From Chloroflexota bacterium (GTDB lineage Bacteria; Chloroflexota; Anaerolineae; Anaerolineales; Villigracilaceae): DNA of 10,000 nucleotides. Each line of letters opens with the position of its first letter. Position 1 is the first letter of the stretch. Below the pieces are notes generated by a model that saw nothing but the letters and a program-made list of their open reading frames with translations, was not told the DNA's origin and made no database searches. Positions 773-7,663 of the stretch are shown in pieces. Made by a program: the position numbers and the translations under genes. The stretch covers positions 1 to 10,000 of the forward strand of contig JAIWOB010000084.1 in NCBI GenBank assembly GCA_020217065.1. Reading direction: 5' to 3'.

Positions 773-795
773 GTTCCGGCGCGGCATAGTAAACT
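767..795 (+). promoter_or_regulatory. Candidate promoter of the metG leader transcript
   Basis: TTGCAA (767-772) and TAAACT (790-795) are spaced by 17 bases, each matching the consensus at four of six positions. The expected start point is about 802-803, which is the A of the leader-peptide ATG or the base before it. The leader ORF would then be translated from a leaderless mRNA, which fits the absence of a Shine-Dalgarno sequence before it. Confidence 0.4.
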
Positions 796-802
796 TTGCG
801 CC

Positions 803-874
803 ATGAAATTCGAGCGCCTCTCGCGGATGCAGATGAAAATGAGCATGCGAAACCGCCGCTGGAAAGCGCGTTAG
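803..874 (+). CDS. Met-rich leader peptide upstream of metG (23 aa)
   Basis: This small ORF runs from ATG at 803 to TAG at 872-874. After the start Met it has Met at residues 9, 11, 13 and 15 (segment MQMKMSM, codons 827-847), so four of seven consecutive residues are Met. The rest is basic (many Arg and Lys). It ends 20 bases before a strong intrinsic terminator, which itself ends 57 bases before the start codon of methionyl-tRNA synthetase. This is the layout of a peptide-leader attenuator: scarce Met-tRNA would stall the ribosome on the Met codons and favour readthrough into metG. There is no Shine-Dalgarno sequence, so translation would have to be leaderless, matching the promoter placement. 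It is not known to me as a described leader peptide. Chance clustering of ATG codons remains possible. Confidence 0.5.
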   Translation: MKFERLSRMQMKMSMRNRRWKAR

Positions 875-889
875 TTCTTCGCGTCTGCG
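828..889 (+). promoter_or_regulatory. Candidate RNA pairing between Met codons and downstream leader (protector stem)
   Basis: TGCAGATG (828-835, spanning Met codons 9-11 of the leader peptide) can pair with CGTCTGCG (882-889) over eight consecutive bases, including two G-U pairs. Separately, AGTTCT (873-878, overlapping the leader stop codon) is exactly complementary to AGAACT (907-912) in the terminator loop, giving a candidate antiterminator contact. A ribosome on the Met codons would block the first pairing but leave 873-878 free; a ribosome at the stop codon would cover 873-878. The pairings are short and were found by eye. Confidence 0.35.
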
Positions 890-894
890 CGGAT

Positions 895-930
895 AACGGG
901 CTGTCCAGAACTGCGGGCAGCCCGTTTTTT
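895..930 (+). terminator. Intrinsic terminator/attenuator in the metG leader
   Basis: Bases 895-906 pair with 915-926 to form a 12-bp stem (one G-U pair, core ACGGGCTG/CAGCCCGT) with an 8-base loop, overlapping a run of six T at 925-930. It lies between the Met-rich leader ORF and metG. No other plus-strand gene precedes it, so it most likely acts as an attenuator for metG. Confidence 0.8.
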
Positions 931-987
931 ATGAAAATTTGGAATTTATGCGGGGAGACTCTCCGCCGCAAAACAGAGGAGAACATC

Positions 988-2790
988 ATGTCGGAAAATA
1001 TTCTCGTCGCCGTCGCCTGGCCCTACGCCAACGCGGAAATTCACGTCGGCAACTTGACCGGCTCCCACTTGCCGGGAGATATTGTCGCGCGTTATCACCG
1101 CTTGAAGGGAAACAAAACTTTGATGATAACCGGCACCGACTCGCATGGCACGCCGGTCACCATGAGCGCGGACAAACTCGGCAAGCCGGTCGAGGAGGTT
1201 TACAAGTTTTACCACGAAGGGTTCATCGAACTGTTTCAAAAGATAGGCATCTCTTACGACCTCTACACCACCACTCATAGCGAAAACCACTTCAAAGTGG
1301 CGCAAAATATGTTCCTTGCCCTGCAAAAGAACGGTTTTCTTTTTACCAAAGTGGAACCGCAATGGTTTTCGCCCGGCCTCAACCGTTTCCTGCCCGACCG
1401 CTACATTGAAGGGACTTGTTATATTTGCGGAAGCGACGGCGCGCGCTCCGACCAGTGCGACGTTTGCGGCAATGTGCTGGACCCCGCCAAACTGGTCAAC
1501 CCGAAGTCGAAGATTGAAGGCGACCGCTCTTCGCCCGAACTGCGCGAGACGGAACATTTCTACATTGACCTTTCGAAACTGGAACCCGACGTGAAGAAGT
1601 ACCTGCAAGACCGCGCCAGTTACATGCGCGATACGGTTTTGGGCGAATCGCTGCGGAAAATTGAAGCGGAGGGGCTGAAGCCCCGCGCCATCACCCGCGA
1701 CCTTGACTGGGGCATTCCAGTCCCTGTTCAAGGCTGGGAGGGAAAATGCCTCTATGTCTGGTTCGAGGCGGTCATCGGCTATCTCTCCGCTCCCATCGAG
1801 TGGGCGCAGATTTCCGGAAACAAGGACGCCTGGCGCGAATGGTGGACCAATCCCGCAGCGAAGCAGTTTCACTTCATCGGCAAGGATAATATTTTCTTCC
1901 ACACCTCGCTTTGGCCCGCCGAATTGATGGGCGTGGGCAGCGCGTTCATGGAACTTTTCGCCGGCGAAGAAATCCCGTTGATTGTCCCCTACGACGTGCC
2001 AGCCAACCAGTTTATGAATCTTGAAGGAAAGAAAATCAGCGGCTCGCGAAACTGGGCGGTATGGGTGCGCGACGCCCTGACTCGTTTTGACCCCGACGCC
2101 ATCCGCTATTATCTGACGGCGAACATGCCCGAAGCCAAGGATAGCGATTGGGATTGGGCGGAATTCGTGGCGCGCAACAACAACGAACTGGTCGCCACCT
2201 GGGGCAACCTCGCTAACCGCGTTCTGTCTTTTAGTTACAAACATTGGGAAGGGCGCGCGCCAAACGTGGATGCGTCCGCATTGCGCGAGGCTGACCTCGA
2301 ATTGCTCAAAACCATCGAAAACGGTTTTAACGTCGTCGGGGCGGAACTCGAAGCCGTGCGTTTGCGTTCGGCGCTCAGCGAAGCGCTGAAACTCGCCACC
2401 GCCGTCAATCAGTATCTCGATGCGCAGTCGCCGTGGAGCGCGGTTAAGACCGACAAGGAATCCGCCGCCAAGACCATCTACACCGCTCTCAAAGCCGTTA
2501 ATTCGCTCAAAGTGATTTTCGCTCCCTTCCTGCCTTTTACATGCGAAAAACTACACAAGTTTTTGGGGTACGAATCGACGCTTTTTGGAGAGCAATACAC
2601 CGAAACGGTCAAAGACGCCCTGGGCGAACATTTGGTTCTGCGCTACCGTCCCCCGGCGCGCAACGAAAACCAATGGAAGGCGGCGGAATTGGAGCCTGGG
2701 CAAAAGTTGAATCAGCCCGCTCCCTTGTTCAGAAAATTGGACCCCAGCGTGGTTGAAGAAGAAAGGGCAAGGCTGGGCGCGCAATCGTAA
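988..2790 (+). CDS. metG: Methionine--tRNA ligase (MetRS)
   Basis: This class I synthetase charges tRNA-Met with methionine, using ATP, in the cytoplasm. The product is 600 residues. The ATP-binding HIGH motif is HVGN (residues 19-22, in YANAEIHVGN). A zinc site, C144-x2-C147-x9-C157-x2-C160, lies in the connective domain, with the same spacing as in E. coli MetRS. The KMSKS loop is KISGS (349-353), followed by the anticodon-binding helical domain (WGNLANRVLSF). The FLPDRYIEGTC and RDLDWGIPVP stretches place it in the subclass also found in actinobacteria, as recalled. There is no C-terminal OB-fold tRNA-binding domain. Start: GAGGAG at 976-981 sits 6 bases before the ATG at 988. In-frame ATGs upstream (796, 931) are rejected because they lie in the leader or directly after the terminator. 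Expression is probably set by the Met-leader attenuator. Confidence 0.97.
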   Translation: MSENILVAVAWPYANAEIHVGNLTGSHLPGDIVARYHRLKGNKTLMITGTDSHGTPVTMSADKLGKPVEEVYKFYHEGFIELFQKIGISYDLYTTTHSENHFKVAQNMFLALQKNGFLFTKVEPQWFSPGLNRFLPDRYIEGTCYICGSDGARSDQCDVCGNVLDPAKLVNPKSKIEGDRSSPELRETEHFYIDLSKLEPDVKKYLQDRASYMRDTVLGESLRKIEAEGLKPRAITRDLDWGIPVPVQGWEGKCLYVWFEAVIGYLSAPIEWAQISGNKDAWREWWTNPAAKQFHFIGKDNIFFHTSLWPAELMGVGSAFMELFAGEEIPLIVPYDVPANQFMNLEGKKISGSRNWAVWVRDALTRFDPDAIRYYLTANMPEAKDSDWDWAEFVARNNNELVATWGNLANRVLSFSYKHWEGRAPNVDASALREADLELLKTIENGFNVVGAELEAVRLRSALSEALKLATAVNQYLDAQSPWSAVKTDKESAAKTIYTALKAVNSLKVIFAPFLPFTCEKLHKFLGYESTLFGEQYTETVKDALGEHLVLRYRPPARNENQWKAAELEPGQKLNQPAPLFRKLDPSVVEEERARLGAQS

Positions 2791-4581: not shown

Positions 4582-5784
4582 TTACATTTCCTTGATTCCG
4601 TAAGGGAAGCCGTAATCCGCCATCTTCTCCATGAAGGGGTCGGGCGGGAACGCCTCGGGACCGAGAACTCCCACACCCTTCCAGACGCCGTGTTCCAGCA
4701 AGTCCATGGCGATAACCGCGCCAAAAGCGGTCTGCGCCACCACAGCCTGACAGCCCCAAGTCTTCATGCACTCTTTATTATCCGCAACCTGATAGAGATA
4801 GACCTGGCGTTCCTTGCCGTCTTTCTTTCCTTTAACCCAGGCGCCGGCGCAAGTCTTCCCGCTCATCTTGTCGCCGAGATGGGCGGGGTCGGGCAGGCAA
4901 GCGGCAACTACATCGCGCGGGGCGACCATGACGCCCTTGACGTTGATTTTTTCCTTGTTGTCGAGACCCAGCATGTGCAACGTCTTTAGGACGCCGATGA
5001 ACTGGTCGCCAAGCCCGTACTTGAAGGTAACGCGTTTGGTCTTCACCCAGCGCGGGACCAACAGGACTTCTTCATGTTCCACGTTTACCACTTCGACGGG
5101 ACCAATCTCCGGGAAGTCAAAAACCTCCGGCTCGGAGAAGGGCGCAGTGGTAAACCAGCCTTTGCCTTCCTCCCAAATGACCGGCGGATTAAGGCATTCC
5201 TCAATGGTGGTCCAAATGGAAAAGTTGGGGGCAAATTCATATCCTTCGATGGTGATGTTTGCGCCATCGCGGATGCCAATTTCGTCTATTTCATCAAAGA
5301 GGCGCTCCTGGGCGTAACGGGCAAAGACATCCGCCATGCCAGGCTCGACCCCCATGCCCACCAGCGCAAGCAATTTTTTCTTTTGCCAGTCCTTCGCCTT
5401 TTTGAACTGGTAATCGCCCAGTTTGACGCCGCATTTATTGAAGGGGTCGGATTTGTGGGGCGTGGAAAGGGTCATTGCCATGTCCATGTAGGTCGCCCCA
5501 ACCGCATAAGCGGCGTCGAAAATCTGTTCGTTGAAGACAGGGTCAACCGCGTTCATAATCAGGTCAACCTTGTATTTCTTCGCAAGTTTGACGATGTCCG
5601 ATTTCTTGCTTGCGTCTATGAATTCAACTGGGAATCTTTTATTCTGACGCAGCCTTTTTTGCACCTCCCTGGCGCGCTTGATATTGTAGTCCGCCAGAAC
5701 CATTTGTTCCATCCACGGGCGCGGTTTTGCAATTGTGGCAATTGCCTCGCCAACGCCTCCGACACCGACGAGCAGAACTTTCAT
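4582..5784 (-). CDS. Saccharopine dehydrogenase family oxidoreductase (saccharopine/lysine/carboxynorspermidine dehydrogenase-like)
   Basis: This 400-residue NAD(P)-dependent enzyme belongs to the LYS9-type family (COG1748). It opens with a Rossmann fold: MKVLLVGVGGVG carries the nucleotide-binding GVGGVG at residues 7-12, and the second strand ends LADYN. The central catalytic domain follows (MNAVDP, MGVEPGMADVFARYA), with a conserved C-terminal part (LPDP, WVKGKKDGKER, PPDPFMEKM). From memory, this C-terminal part resembles bacterial carboxynorspermidine dehydrogenase (LPDP, WVQGKKDGKER, DPDPFLE). The substrate is therefore open: saccharopine, lysine or a carboxy-polyamine. Start: an ATG at 5799 adds five residues, but GGAG lies 9 bases before the ATG at 5784 and the Rossmann strand starts there, so I chose 5784. 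However, TTATAA (5806-5811) sits exactly 6 bases before the 5799 ATG, so a leaderless start at 5799 is a real alternative. An Lrp regulator lies upstream and a symporter downstream. Confidence 0.88.
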   Translation of the reverse strand: MKVLLVGVGGVGEAIATIAKPRPWMEQMVLADYNIKRAREVQKRLRQNKRFPVEFIDASKKSDIVKLAKKYKVDLIMNAVDPVFNEQIFDAAYAVGATYMDMAMTLSTPHKSDPFNKCGVKLGDYQFKKAKDWQKKKLLALVGMGVEPGMADVFARYAQERLFDEIDEIGIRDGANITIEGYEFAPNFSIWTTIEECLNPPVIWEEGKGWFTTAPFSEPEVFDFPEIGPVEVVNVEHEEVLLVPRWVKTKRVTFKYGLGDQFIGVLKTLHMLGLDNKEKINVKGVMVAPRDVVAACLPDPAHLGDKMSGKTCAGAWVKGKKDGKERQVYLYQVADNKECMKTWGCQAVVAQTAFGAVIAMDLLEHGVWKGVGVLGPEAFPPDPFMEKMADYGFPYGIKEM

Positions 5785-5847
5785 AATCTTGTACTCCATT
5801 TTGTTTTATAACCCGCCGAACGCGAGTTAGAATGACAATGAAAAGAC

Positions 5848-5884: not shown

Positions 5885-6355
5885 CTAAAAGTAAATCTCT
5901 TTTGCAATCTTCAAATGGATAAAAGATTCCGTTTCGCGGATGCCGTCTATTTTCGCAAGTTTTTCGGTCAGGAACTTGAGCAAGTCTTCGTGGTCGCGGC
6001 AAAAGACTTCACAGATAATGTCGTATCGCCCGCTGACCACCACCAGATAAACCACCTCTTCGAGTTTGGAAATTTGCTCGGCGACTTGCAGCATCTTGGA
6101 GGCTTCGGTGTGAACCCCAATCAACGCCATCGTCCGCATCCCCATCATCAGCGGGTTGGTGACCGCCACCACCTTGAGGTAACCAAGTTCCACAAGGCGG
6201 TTATAACGCTGGCGAATCATGCCGGGAGAAACGTTGAGTTTCTCGGCAATTTGAGCGAAAGGCTCCCTGCCGTCTTTATGCAGGGCGTCAATAATGTACT
6301 GGTCAATGCGGTCAAGACGCGAGACGCTCTGACTTGCGCCGATTGCGTTTTCCAT
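5885..6355 (-). CDS. Lrp/AsnC family transcriptional regulator
   Basis: The 156-residue product has the standard length and layout of the feast/famine family. An N-terminal helix-turn-helix spans about residues 14-62 (DRIDQYIIDAL, then EKLNVSPGMIRQRYNRLVELGYL as the recognition region). An alpha/beta RAM (AsnC ligand-binding) domain spans about residues 70-150, including the VVSGRYDIICEV strand typical of the effector-binding dimer interface. Members bind DNA as multimers of dimers and sense amino acids or related metabolites. The adjacent co-directional dehydrogenase and Na+ symporter are its likely targets, together with its own gene. There is no good Shine-Dalgarno before the ATG (AAAGGA is 13 bases away). 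The promoter instead places the transcript start on the ATG itself, so the mRNA is probably leaderless. Confidence 0.95.
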   Translation of the reverse strand: MENAIGASQSVSRLDRIDQYIIDALHKDGREPFAQIAEKLNVSPGMIRQRYNRLVELGYLKVVAVTNPLMMGMRTMALIGVHTEASKMLQVAEQISKLEEVVYLVVVSGRYDIICEVFCRDHEDLLKFLTEKLAKIDGIRETESFIHLKIAKEIYF

Positions 6356-6475: not shown

Positions 6476-7663
6476 TTAATCGCCGTTTCTCACCTCGCGC
6501 CACAGGTCGTCATAAAGGCGGGCGGCGGTGCCTACATCCGCGATGCGGCGTCCCGTCCGCAAAACGTTTATGGGCGGGTTGGTGATTGGCGATTCAATGT
6601 AGGCGTTATACAGGCTGGCGAGAGTAATTTCCCCGCCGTTTATATCCTTGATTTTCGTTTGGTTTTCGCGGATAAATTCAAGCGCGGCGGCGTTCGGAAC
6701 GCTATATGGAAAATCGCGCAAGACCATCCAAAACACATCGCCCTGATTGACGTAATTCAGCCAGGCATAGGCGGCGTCGGCGTGAGGGGCGTTCTTAAGA
6801 ATCGCCCAATTATCCTGCCAAAGGATGACGCCTTCCGAAGGGAAAACAATTTGGATTTGCGGGTTTTCCTGATGGGCGATAAAGGCTTCGCCCGTCCATA
6901 CCGCCGCCAAATCCACAGCGCCGGCGAGGAGGGCAGTTTTGGGGCTGTCGCTGTCGAAGAGTTTGACGGCGGGAATCAACGCCTCCAGTTTGGTCTTGGC
7001 TTCCGCCAACTGCGCGGGGTCCGTCGTATTGACGTCATAACCGAGAGACAGGAGGGCTGCGCCAATAACGACGCGCCGGTCGTCGAGAAGCGCTATCCGC
7101 CCGGCGTACTGCGGATTCCACAGGTCCGCCCACGACTGCGGAAGAGTCTCCACCCTGTCCATGTTGACTGCAATCAAATCCATCCCAGCCAGATAGGGAA
7201 GCGTAAACCTGTTGCCGGGGTCAAATTCAAAATCGAGATAGTCGGGGTTGAAATTTTTCATCACCGGCAGGCGGGCATGGTCGAGTTCCTGCAATAAATT
7301 CTCTTTGACGAGACGGGGAATCATGTAATCGGACGGCAGAATCAAGTCGTAACGGGCGCCGCCGCCGACAATTCCATCATATAGCTCCTCGTTGCTGGAA
7401 TACAGATGAAGACGGGTTTCAACGCCGTAAACCGCCTCAAAACATTCGACCATGTCGGCTGGGATGTACTCGGTCCAAACAAAAAGGTCAAGTTCCGTGG
7501 AAGTCAATTCGGCGGGAAATTCAGGCTGCGGGCAAAGATAACCGCTTGAAGAAACCGGCGGCGCAGCGGTCGGAGAGGACGAGGCTGGCAGCATCGAACC
7601 GCCGCACGCCGCCAGCGAAAAACCAGCGGCAAGCAAACAGAGCGAGAGAATTTTTTGATTCAT
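6476..7663 (-). CDS. PotD-like polyamine-binding lipoprotein (ABC transporter substrate-binding protein)
   Basis: The 395-residue product starts with a lipoprotein signal: basic start, hydrophobic core, lipobox LAAC at residues 17-20, so Cys20 would be lipid-anchored. A Ser/Pro/Thr-rich tether follows to about residue 42, then a PotD-type periplasmic-binding fold. Compared from memory with E. coli PotD, the ligand-site residues WTEY (63-66), PSDY (110-113), D195, W256, and W282/D284 are kept. However, the position of PotD Glu171 is Val198, and the position of Gln327 appears hydrophobic. Polyamine binding is therefore likely, but specificity may differ. No permease or ATPase genes are in view. 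The start codon is 5 bases after the adenosine-specific kinase stop, so the two are probably co-transcribed; its own ribosome-binding site is weak. Confidence 0.9.
   Translation of the reverse strand: MNQKILSLCLLAAGFSLAACGGSMLPASSSPTAAPPVSSSGYLCPQPEFPAELTSTELDLFVWTEYIPADMVECFEAVYGVETRLHLYSSNEELYDGIVGGGARYDLILPSDYMIPRLVKENLLQELDHARLPVMKNFNPDYLDFEFDPGNRFTLPYLAGMDLIAVNMDRVETLPQSWADLWNPQYAGRIALLDDRRVVIGAALLSLGYDVNTTDPAQLAEAKTKLEALIPAVKLFDSDSPKTALLAGAVDLAAVWTGEAFIAHQENPQIQIVFPSEGVILWQDNWAILKNAPHADAAYAWLNYVNQGDVFWMVLRDFPYSVPNAAALEFIRENQTKIKDINGGEITLASLYNAYIESPITNPPINVLRTGRRIADVGTAARLYDDLWREVRNGD

Follow-up and report, generated by a model that had tools for sequence, protein, structure and literature searches.

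The window analyzed here is a stretch of 10,000 nucleotides on contig C63 of an Anaerolineales (Chloroflexota) genome bin, which is 1.6 Mb long, 66% complete and divided into 157 contigs, and whose nearest relatives among named records are MAGs of Anaerolineales and other Chloroflexi. Within the window, a divergent intergenic region at positions 673-987 separates metG on the plus strand from a minus-strand PAS-domain gene, and the elements read in and next to this region are listed in Table 1. An earlier note on this DNA had pointed to a 23-codon ORF at 803-874 with four Met codons in the order MxMxMxM, to a terminator 20 bases past its end, and to methionyl-tRNA synthetase as the next gene, starting at 988. 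Re-reading of the sequence returned the same ORF; the terminator was placed at 895-926 with 12 bp, 8 of them G-C pairs, an 8-nt loop and a T run at 925-930, and the next gene matched PF09334 with an E value of 1.9e-133. When the whole window was searched for terminator-like sites, 17 were found against 18.3 expected by chance, i.e., no excess, and the 895-926 hairpin, which is conserved in relatives, topped the list. Elsewhere in the window, adjoining genes on the minus strand encode a saccharopine-dehydrogenase-type protein (4585-5799), an Lrp/AsnC regulator (5888-6355) and an extracellular solute-binding protein (6479-7663), and the regulator-dehydrogenase gene order is repeated in a relative, G030 (L245).

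Table 1. Elements of the metG leader region, in window coordinates.
Element	Position	Strand	Remarks
-35 element TTGCAA	767..772	+	17 nt before the -10 element; similar placement in relatives
-10 element TAAACT	790..795	+	Sequence reading and comparison of 77 loci
7-nt discriminator	796..802	+	Predicted transcription start at or next to ATG 803
Putative leader peptide ORF MKFERLSRMQMKMSMRNRRWKAR, proposed name metL	803..874	+	23 codons, ATG 803, TAG 872-874
Putative regulatory Met codons 827, 833, 839, 845 (M-Q-M-K-M-S-M)	827..847	+	Sequence reading
Predicted antiterminator 5' arm (segment 2), WKAR codons and first stop base	860..872	+	11/13 positions pair with 895-907
Intrinsic terminator	895..926	+	Segment 3 895-906, loop 907-914, segment 4 915-926, T run 925-930
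SD-like GAGGAG of metG	976..981	+	Sequence reading
metG, methionyl-tRNA synthetase	988..2790	+	600 codons and stop, ATG 988; Pfam PF09334, E 1.9e-133

Conservation of a Methionine-Rich ORF Upstream of metG

To compare the leader with those of relatives, metG upstream regions were collected from the best 30 loci of the genus (57 genomes), the best 30 of the family (150 genomes) and 80 contigs of named records. The resulting 121 loci gave 89 distinct upstream regions after removal of 29 duplicates with the same last 200 nt, of L117, which has no start, and of L002 and L003, which match weakly at other places of the window's own genome. L029, with only 27 nt upstream, was excluded, and the last 330 nt of each of the 88 remaining regions, window included, were examined next to 1760 dinucleotide shuffles and the 88 antisense strands. 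All counts across loci are raw, i.e., uncorrected for phylogeny.

An ATG-initiated ORF of 12-60 codons with at least three internal Met codons was present in 82/88 regions, compared with 80/1760 shuffles and 8/88 antisense strands. When the ATG also had to follow a -10 box by 6-8 nt, 75/88 regions were recovered, and none of the shuffles (0/1760) or antisense strands (0/88). The six regions lacking an ORF with three internal Met codons were L019, whose leader has two, L085, L089, L107, L109 and L114; L037, counted among the 82, has neither the promoter spacing nor the arm nor the conserved terminator. A typical leader, that of L018, reads MKFKSAFSMVPMTMAMRMEMFCRAEWKAR-stop. In an alignment of 77 leaders, the Met columns were strongly kept (e.g., 71/77, 59/68, 59/75 and 58/77), and most non-Met positions were variable.

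The reading frame was assessed by the distance from the promoter-anchored ATG to the antiterminator arm, which was located with a pattern blind to frame. This distance was a multiple of 3 in 60/60 loci showing the arm pattern (77 tried), with 16 different values between 57 and 114 nt. In the 77 leaders, internal ATG triplets in frame likewise far outnumbered those of the two other frames, 401 compared with 3 and 17; of the two tests, that by distance is the cleaner because, among several ATGs after a -10 box, the most Met-rich one was chosen. In 66/67 loci of the set defined below, the last Met codon lay 15-30 nt from the arm, with a mode of 18 nt (40 loci), which is about the distance to the downstream edge of a ribosome. 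This placement fits an attenuator; the distance of the arm from the end of the stop codon, 12 or 15 nt, was fixed by the choice of the set.

Purifying selection on the non-Met residues was not detected in 111 close pairs, in which 211 of 939 changed codons were synonymous, a fraction of 0.225 compared with 0.241 expected. The changes at the three codon positions numbered 323, 409 and 488 in this test, and 695, 845 and 816 in a cruder one. An unconstrained peptide would suit a leader that depends on nothing but its frame, its Met codons and its RNA segments, but it is no independent proof of translation.

A Promoter-Like Sequence Adjacent to the ORF and a Probable Leaderless Start

A short ORF with a -10 box 6-8 nt upstream of its ATG was found in 76/88 loci, against 15/1760 shuffles and no antisense strand. 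Among 77 loci, the box was TAAAAT in 43, TAAACT in 30 and TACAAT in 4, and its spacing to the ATG was 7 nt in 64, 6 nt in 10, 8 nt in 2 and 9 nt in 1. Promoter-like sites lay within 60 nt before the leader ATG in 54/77 loci, compared with 1.8 in shuffled sequences; between the terminator and metG, they were not in excess (1/67 versus 3.8 shuffled). An SD-like site preceded the leader ATG in 0/77 loci and metG in 86/89. Since the ATG stands 6-8 nt past the -10 box and an SD-like site is absent, the leader mRNA is predicted to be leaderless, and on this arrangement we regard it as probably so. Chloroflexi are listed in an excerpt of PMC3160421 as having leaderless genes and a TAtaaT signal.

At the genome scale, the exact pattern TTGACA-N16-18-TAAAAT-N6-8-ATG gave 16 sites in 12 genomes, and the reversed pattern none. 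The looser TAGTAAACT-N6-8-ATG was not enriched in the 12 genomes, with 8 sites compared with 13 for the reversed control; its sole site in the window's incomplete genome is the metG leader. A search for leaderless leaders of other amino acids, covering 24 sites in 12 genomes, gave no clear case. The gene of the Lrp/AsnC-type regulator (ATG 6355, minus strand) starts 6 nt after the -10 box of a TTGACT-17-TAAAAT promoter-like sequence (window 6390-6355), and, because of this spacing and the same arrangement in the G030 relative (L245), it looks leaderless too. A leaderless-looking ORF of 39 codons was also seen at about position 1537 of L239, some 100 nt before another gene, and may be a further leader ORF; the gene behind it is presumably homocitrate or isopropylmalate synthase-like, as judged by its first residues.

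Conserved RNA Segments Around the Terminator

A hairpin followed by a T run was detected in 85/88 loci, of which at least three (L037, L109 and L114) do not have the conserved terminator. To describe the pairing segments, we selected loci with the motif GCTGYCC and an xGG codon 12 or 15 nt upstream of the stop codon's end. This rule gave 67 loci, including L097 and L112, which by eye belong to the type II described below, and the ATG was promoter-anchored in 65 of them. In this set, the WKAR-stop codons, TGGAAAGCACGTT (window 860-872), are complementary to AACGGGCTGTCCA (window 895-907), which consists of the terminator 5' arm plus one loop base. The conserved pairing is thus 860-872 with 895-907 and not the two pairings first named in the earlier note, 828-835 with 882-889 and 873-878 with 907-912: their complementarity is real, but they lie in variable regions and had predicted probabilities of only 0-0.16 and 0-0.01, respectively.

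Alignment A1, of 40 sequences, was composed of 37 of the 49 plus-strand loci (the window standing for L001) together with L101, L106 and L110, the 18 minus-strand loci being left out. In it, 91.6% of the antiterminator cells were paired, compared with 21-52% when slid, and 90.8% of the terminator cells, compared with 32-56%. Covariation of the antiterminator core on A1 was not above that of shuffles, 70 of 500 of which scored as high, because the core varies too little. Outside this core, arm positions -1 and -2 covaried with bases of the terminator loop, which have no partner in the terminator itself (permutation values of 0.0025 and 0.0045, kinship ignored); the pairs seen at -1 were A:T, G:T, C:G, G:C and T:A, and 19/67 loci were unpaired there. 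Arm positions 9 and 12 also covaried, with 0/2000 permutations as high when kinship was ignored. Since this signal comes mainly from the WKA-stop form, plus L079 at position 9, it probably reflects one or few events. By duplex energy, the arm and the terminator arm clearly outdid 100 shuffles (at most 5 as good) in just 19/82 loci.

Two further layouts were recognized. In about ten more distant loci, e.g., L081, L096, L100, L101, L106, L110 and L112, inspection by eye revealed a type II arm (GGACAGC and variants), which in these named examples follows the last Met codon by 15 nt, and in L096, L100 and L110 the arm had changed together with the loop base, C:G for T:A (by eye). A third layout, in six loci (L082, L092, L094, L098, L099 and L102), has an ORF ending in QFxAR-stop (TGA) and a CTGCTGGC-type terminator; a Met triplet or MSMSM and a GCAGTTC...GAACTGC hairpin across the stop codon were noted in it.

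An additional segment, here called segment 1 (consensus GCTTTCC), lies in codons 6-8 and directly precedes codon 9, which is ATG in 55/65 leaders. In a fixed register with the arm, 370 of 455 cells were paired (81%) over 65 leaders, that of the window among them, compared with 21-65% when slid (permutation value of 0.004), and at least 6 of the 7 pairs could form in 42/65 loci, as with GCCTTCC and GGAAGGC in L070. The pairing of segment 1 with the arm reached a predicted probability of at least 0.5 in 34/65 loci when untranslated RNA was folded before the terminator. About two thirds of the loci would therefore have the layout of a classic three-way attenuator, as segment 1 pairs with the arm in 42/65. 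Segment 1 was not found at codons 6-8 of the window, a match of just 6 of 8 positions being seen in another register, and by its sequence the window copy appears as a short form that lacks it.

A Proposed Methionine Attenuator and Its Alternatives

The earlier note had proposed a peptide attenuator for methionine. This idea gained from the comparison: the predicted antiterminator (860-872 with 895-907) overlaps the terminator, and in relatives the terminator before metG is conserved together with the Met codons, the reading frame, the place of the stop codon and the antiterminator arm. The note had offered as a refutation that relatives might retain the terminator without the Met codons or the ORF frame; the comparison was such a test, and the idea withstood it. 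We consider it very probable, on this comparative basis, that the leader controls metG as a ribosome-mediated transcription attenuator sensing elongator Met-tRNA. The RNA polymerase would begin at the ATG at 803 or beside it, and the 5'-terminal AUG of the leaderless RNA would load a ribosome. With ample Met-tRNA, this ribosome would reach the stop codon at 872 and cover the arm at 860-872; the terminator at 895-926 would fold, and transcription would end before metG. With scarce Met-tRNA, the ribosome would stall on the Met codons at 827-847, which start 15-33 nt before the arm, and the freed arm could pair with the emerging 895-907 segment, extended by 859:908, so that the terminator would be delayed or blocked and metG transcribed. 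The antiterminator would form first and persist until the polymerase passes, by virtue of folding order, or else the switch would be partial. In about two thirds of the loci, segment 1 (GCUUUCC) could take the same arm when nothing is translated, an option missing from the window.

Next, nascent RNA was folded starting 14 nt downstream of the first base of the A-site codon. When the RNA ended with the terminator loop, the antiterminator was predicted in 64/67 loci for a ribosome on the last Met codon, 63/67 on the penultimate and 60/67 on the first internal one, and in 0/67 for a ribosome on the stop codon. Once the RNA included the whole terminator, this hairpin had the minimum free energy in 67/67 loci when the ribosome stood on the stop codon, but it still won when the ribosome was stalled, in 63/67 loci (window included) for the last Met codon, 46/67 for the penultimate and 45/67 for the first internal one. 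For this reason, the switch would have to be kinetic or partial, and the stability of the terminator in the complete RNA with a stalled ribosome is the main weakness of the model as computed.

Untranslated leaders were folded in 65 loci, and these results bear on a variant that we regard as possible, if rather doubtful: the untranslated RNA of the window would antiterminate first, and both a loss of initiation by shortage of fMet-tRNA and stalling at the Met codons would switch metG on. The predicted antiterminator probability of the untranslated window RNA was 1.0 when folded to position 914 and 0.99 to position 920, compared with a median of 0.19 over the 65 loci with RNA to the loop end, and the window copy has no segment 1 at codons 6-8. 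On the other hand, the complete window leader favors the terminator at equilibrium, with a probability of 0.91 to 1.0; the minimum-energy fold of 803-935 is antiterminated, but this is a minor state, and the centroid shows the terminator. Elsewhere, segment 1 is present in 42/65 loci, and complete untranslated leaders fold into the terminator in 62/65. Such behavior was rejected for the clade as a whole, given these 62/65 leaders, an antiterminator in just 23/65 nascent ones folded to the loop end, and the existence of segment 1. A related and unlikely proposal is that a leaderless leader gauges initiation as well as elongation, so that, in short forms without a protecting segment, shortage of either initiator or elongator Met-tRNA would turn metG on. 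Were it true, initiation would be a second input, a plausible twist that the short form of the window is suited to test.

The remaining readings do without attenuation by methionine. That the ORF encodes a functional Met-rich peptide, e.g., a metal-binding one, in a gene ending at the terminator, with metG under its own promoter, is very improbable: MxMxM runs do resemble copper-binding motifs, but constraint on the non-Met residues was not detected, the end of the ORF pairs with the terminator, leader and metG occur together in 82/88 loci, no excess of promoter-like sites precedes metG, and 6/67 gaps are shorter than 60 nt. Control of metG by a ligand-binding RNA, either a T-box or a SAM riboswitch, with an incidental ORF would find some backing in the T-box matches (E up to 0.001) of 57/57 genus genomes, 53 of them above the family cut-off; at the locus itself, though, neither T-box (RF00230) nor SAM riboswitches matched anywhere in the window up to an E value of 5, no Rfam family reached its gathering threshold in 18 metG loci, and the leader length varies by whole codons, which makes this explanation hardly credible. 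For other Rfam families, the window gave three matches elsewhere, with E values of 0.56 to 4.4, far under the cut-offs. Finally, a boost of metG translation by reinitiation or coupling without methionine sensing, of a kind proposed in general for leader genes in an excerpt of PMC4833913, is extremely unlikely, as the terminator and 20-164 nt beyond it separate the leader from metG, metG has its own SD-like site in 86/89 regions, and Met codons would not be favored.

Relation to Known Attenuators and T-Boxes

Ribosome-mediated attenuators are known from the trp, his, leu, thr, phe and ilv leaders, and the amino acids with known peptide attenuators include Trp, His, Leu, Thr, Phe, Ile/Val, Cys and Ala. 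Switches of this kind are scarcely known for methionine. The metG leader shares with the classic ones a short ORF rich in the cognate codon, a terminator and a mutually exclusive predicted antiterminator, and, in 42/65 loci, the 1:2 segment pairing; it differs in being a putative methionine sensor, in its proposed control of metG, in its occurrence in Chloroflexota, in its predicted leaderless mRNA and, for the window copy, in the lack of segment 1. To our knowledge, one problem is unique to a methionine attenuator, namely that the sensed amino acid also starts the peptide. Under the proposal that initiation and elongation are both gauged, the clade would have solved it by means of a leaderless leader. 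The polycysteine leaderless ORFs of mycobacteria were reportedly described by Canestrari in 2020. As related in part in PMC13236596, these are leaderless, as predicted for the metG leader, and short, with runs of the sensed residue, but the residue is cysteine and the process is termed translation attenuation.

Excerpts of PMC8079986 describe Streptomyces lividans leaders before leuS (leuL2), alaS (alaL), thrS (thrL) and trpS (trpL2). Of these, leuL2 is leaderless, as predicted for the metG leader, and resembles it in having a terminator and in preceding an aminoacyl-tRNA synthetase gene, whereas the S. lividans synthetase leaders as a group differ in amino acid and phylum (PMC8079986, excerpts). 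The same excerpts contain metL, a proposed attenuator before metN that is leaderless, as predicted here, and has several Met codons, but the gene it precedes is for a methionine importer, a typical Rho-independent terminator was not found, and its Met and Thr codons are mixed. In the literature searched, and as far as these excerpts go, this tentative metN leader of Streptomyces is the nearest to a methionine attenuator at metG. The uORFC-8-2 leader before cysS of Rhodobacterales is, in an excerpt of PMC8632094, a ribosome-mediated synthetase attenuator found by genome comparison, as proposed here; it differs by its cysteine codons and its origin in Alphaproteobacteria. For the methionine operons of Actinobacteria, the portion of PMC1262725 consulted states that no conserved RNA structure was found upstream.

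The earlier note had supposed a Met leader peptide at metG to be undescribed, and none was found among the matches listed from the CC-licensed PMC literature; an earlier mention is possible, as one 2010 attenuation survey lies outside that scope. This survey, by Lopatovskaya et al., is said, by its title, to deal with attenuation of amino-acid and aminoacyl-tRNA operons. T-boxes, which sense tRNA charging, are common before aminoacyl-tRNA synthetase genes; both T-box and metG leader would respond to charging, but sensing by the metG leader would need translation. T-boxes in Chloroflexi are reported in parts of PMC2494555 and PMC3766115, and metG was not found in the main text of either.

The same genomes carry T-boxes, and yet a putative translated sensor precedes metG. 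Some 80 natural variants are available, in three layouts and with promoters close to consensus, and these leaders offer a ready system for testing how a leader may sense the amino acid that starts translation, and they could also be useful for studying leaderless initiation in Chloroflexota.

Extent Among Genomes and Further Copies

A covariance model of the leader, R1, matched 55/57 genus genomes at an E value up to 0.01, and the match was strong (E up to 7e-12) in 53/57. In 52 of these 53, it lay beside metG on the same contig; in G009, it was on a contig without metG. In the genus genomes without a strong match (G021, G048, G055 and G042), the start of metG was unassembled or split, and in G042 a metG-type leader ends at the end of a contig (G042:C87). 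Across 400 phylum genomes, searched with stricter filters by which weak matches are lost, 40 had a match at an E value up to 0.01; those at E values up to 1e-7 all belonged to the window's family.

The Met-rich ORF taken alone was found in 2/11 order genomes outside the window's family (0.32 in shuffled sequences, 1 antisense) and, with at least three internal Met codons, in 11/40 genomes of the class's other families (0.96 shuffled, 0 antisense), these 40 being drawn from 156 other-family genomes having a match. Because Met-rich ORFs also occur in other families of the order and class, the device may predate the family. A Met-rich short ORF followed by a terminator before metG was observed in other class families at L194, L197, L200, L208, L210, L212, L225 and others.

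T-box matches were present in all 57 genus genomes, with 5 in the window's own (G000: C62, C102 and C139) and up to 8 per genome; the genus is a T-box-rich Chloroflexota lineage. A regulon beyond metG was discarded, as R1 gave one strong match per genome, beside metG. Other R1 matches above 40 bits were in G056 (74), G037 (43), G054:C90 (42.6, with no Met leader) and G042:C87, and a Met leader was not found at four further R1 matches, in G054, G034, G032 and G055 (L176 and L179-L181). In G056 and G037, a second copy was seen before a 270-aa gene, some 1 kb ahead of the metG leader. The copy in G037 (L175; G037:C4:179219-179317, minus strand) has no Met codons and is apparently decayed, and that in G056 (L174 1287-1406; G056:C41:14286-14405) is a leaderless-looking ORF, MKTTMEIQTCDWKAR, with one internal Met codon and a similar terminator.
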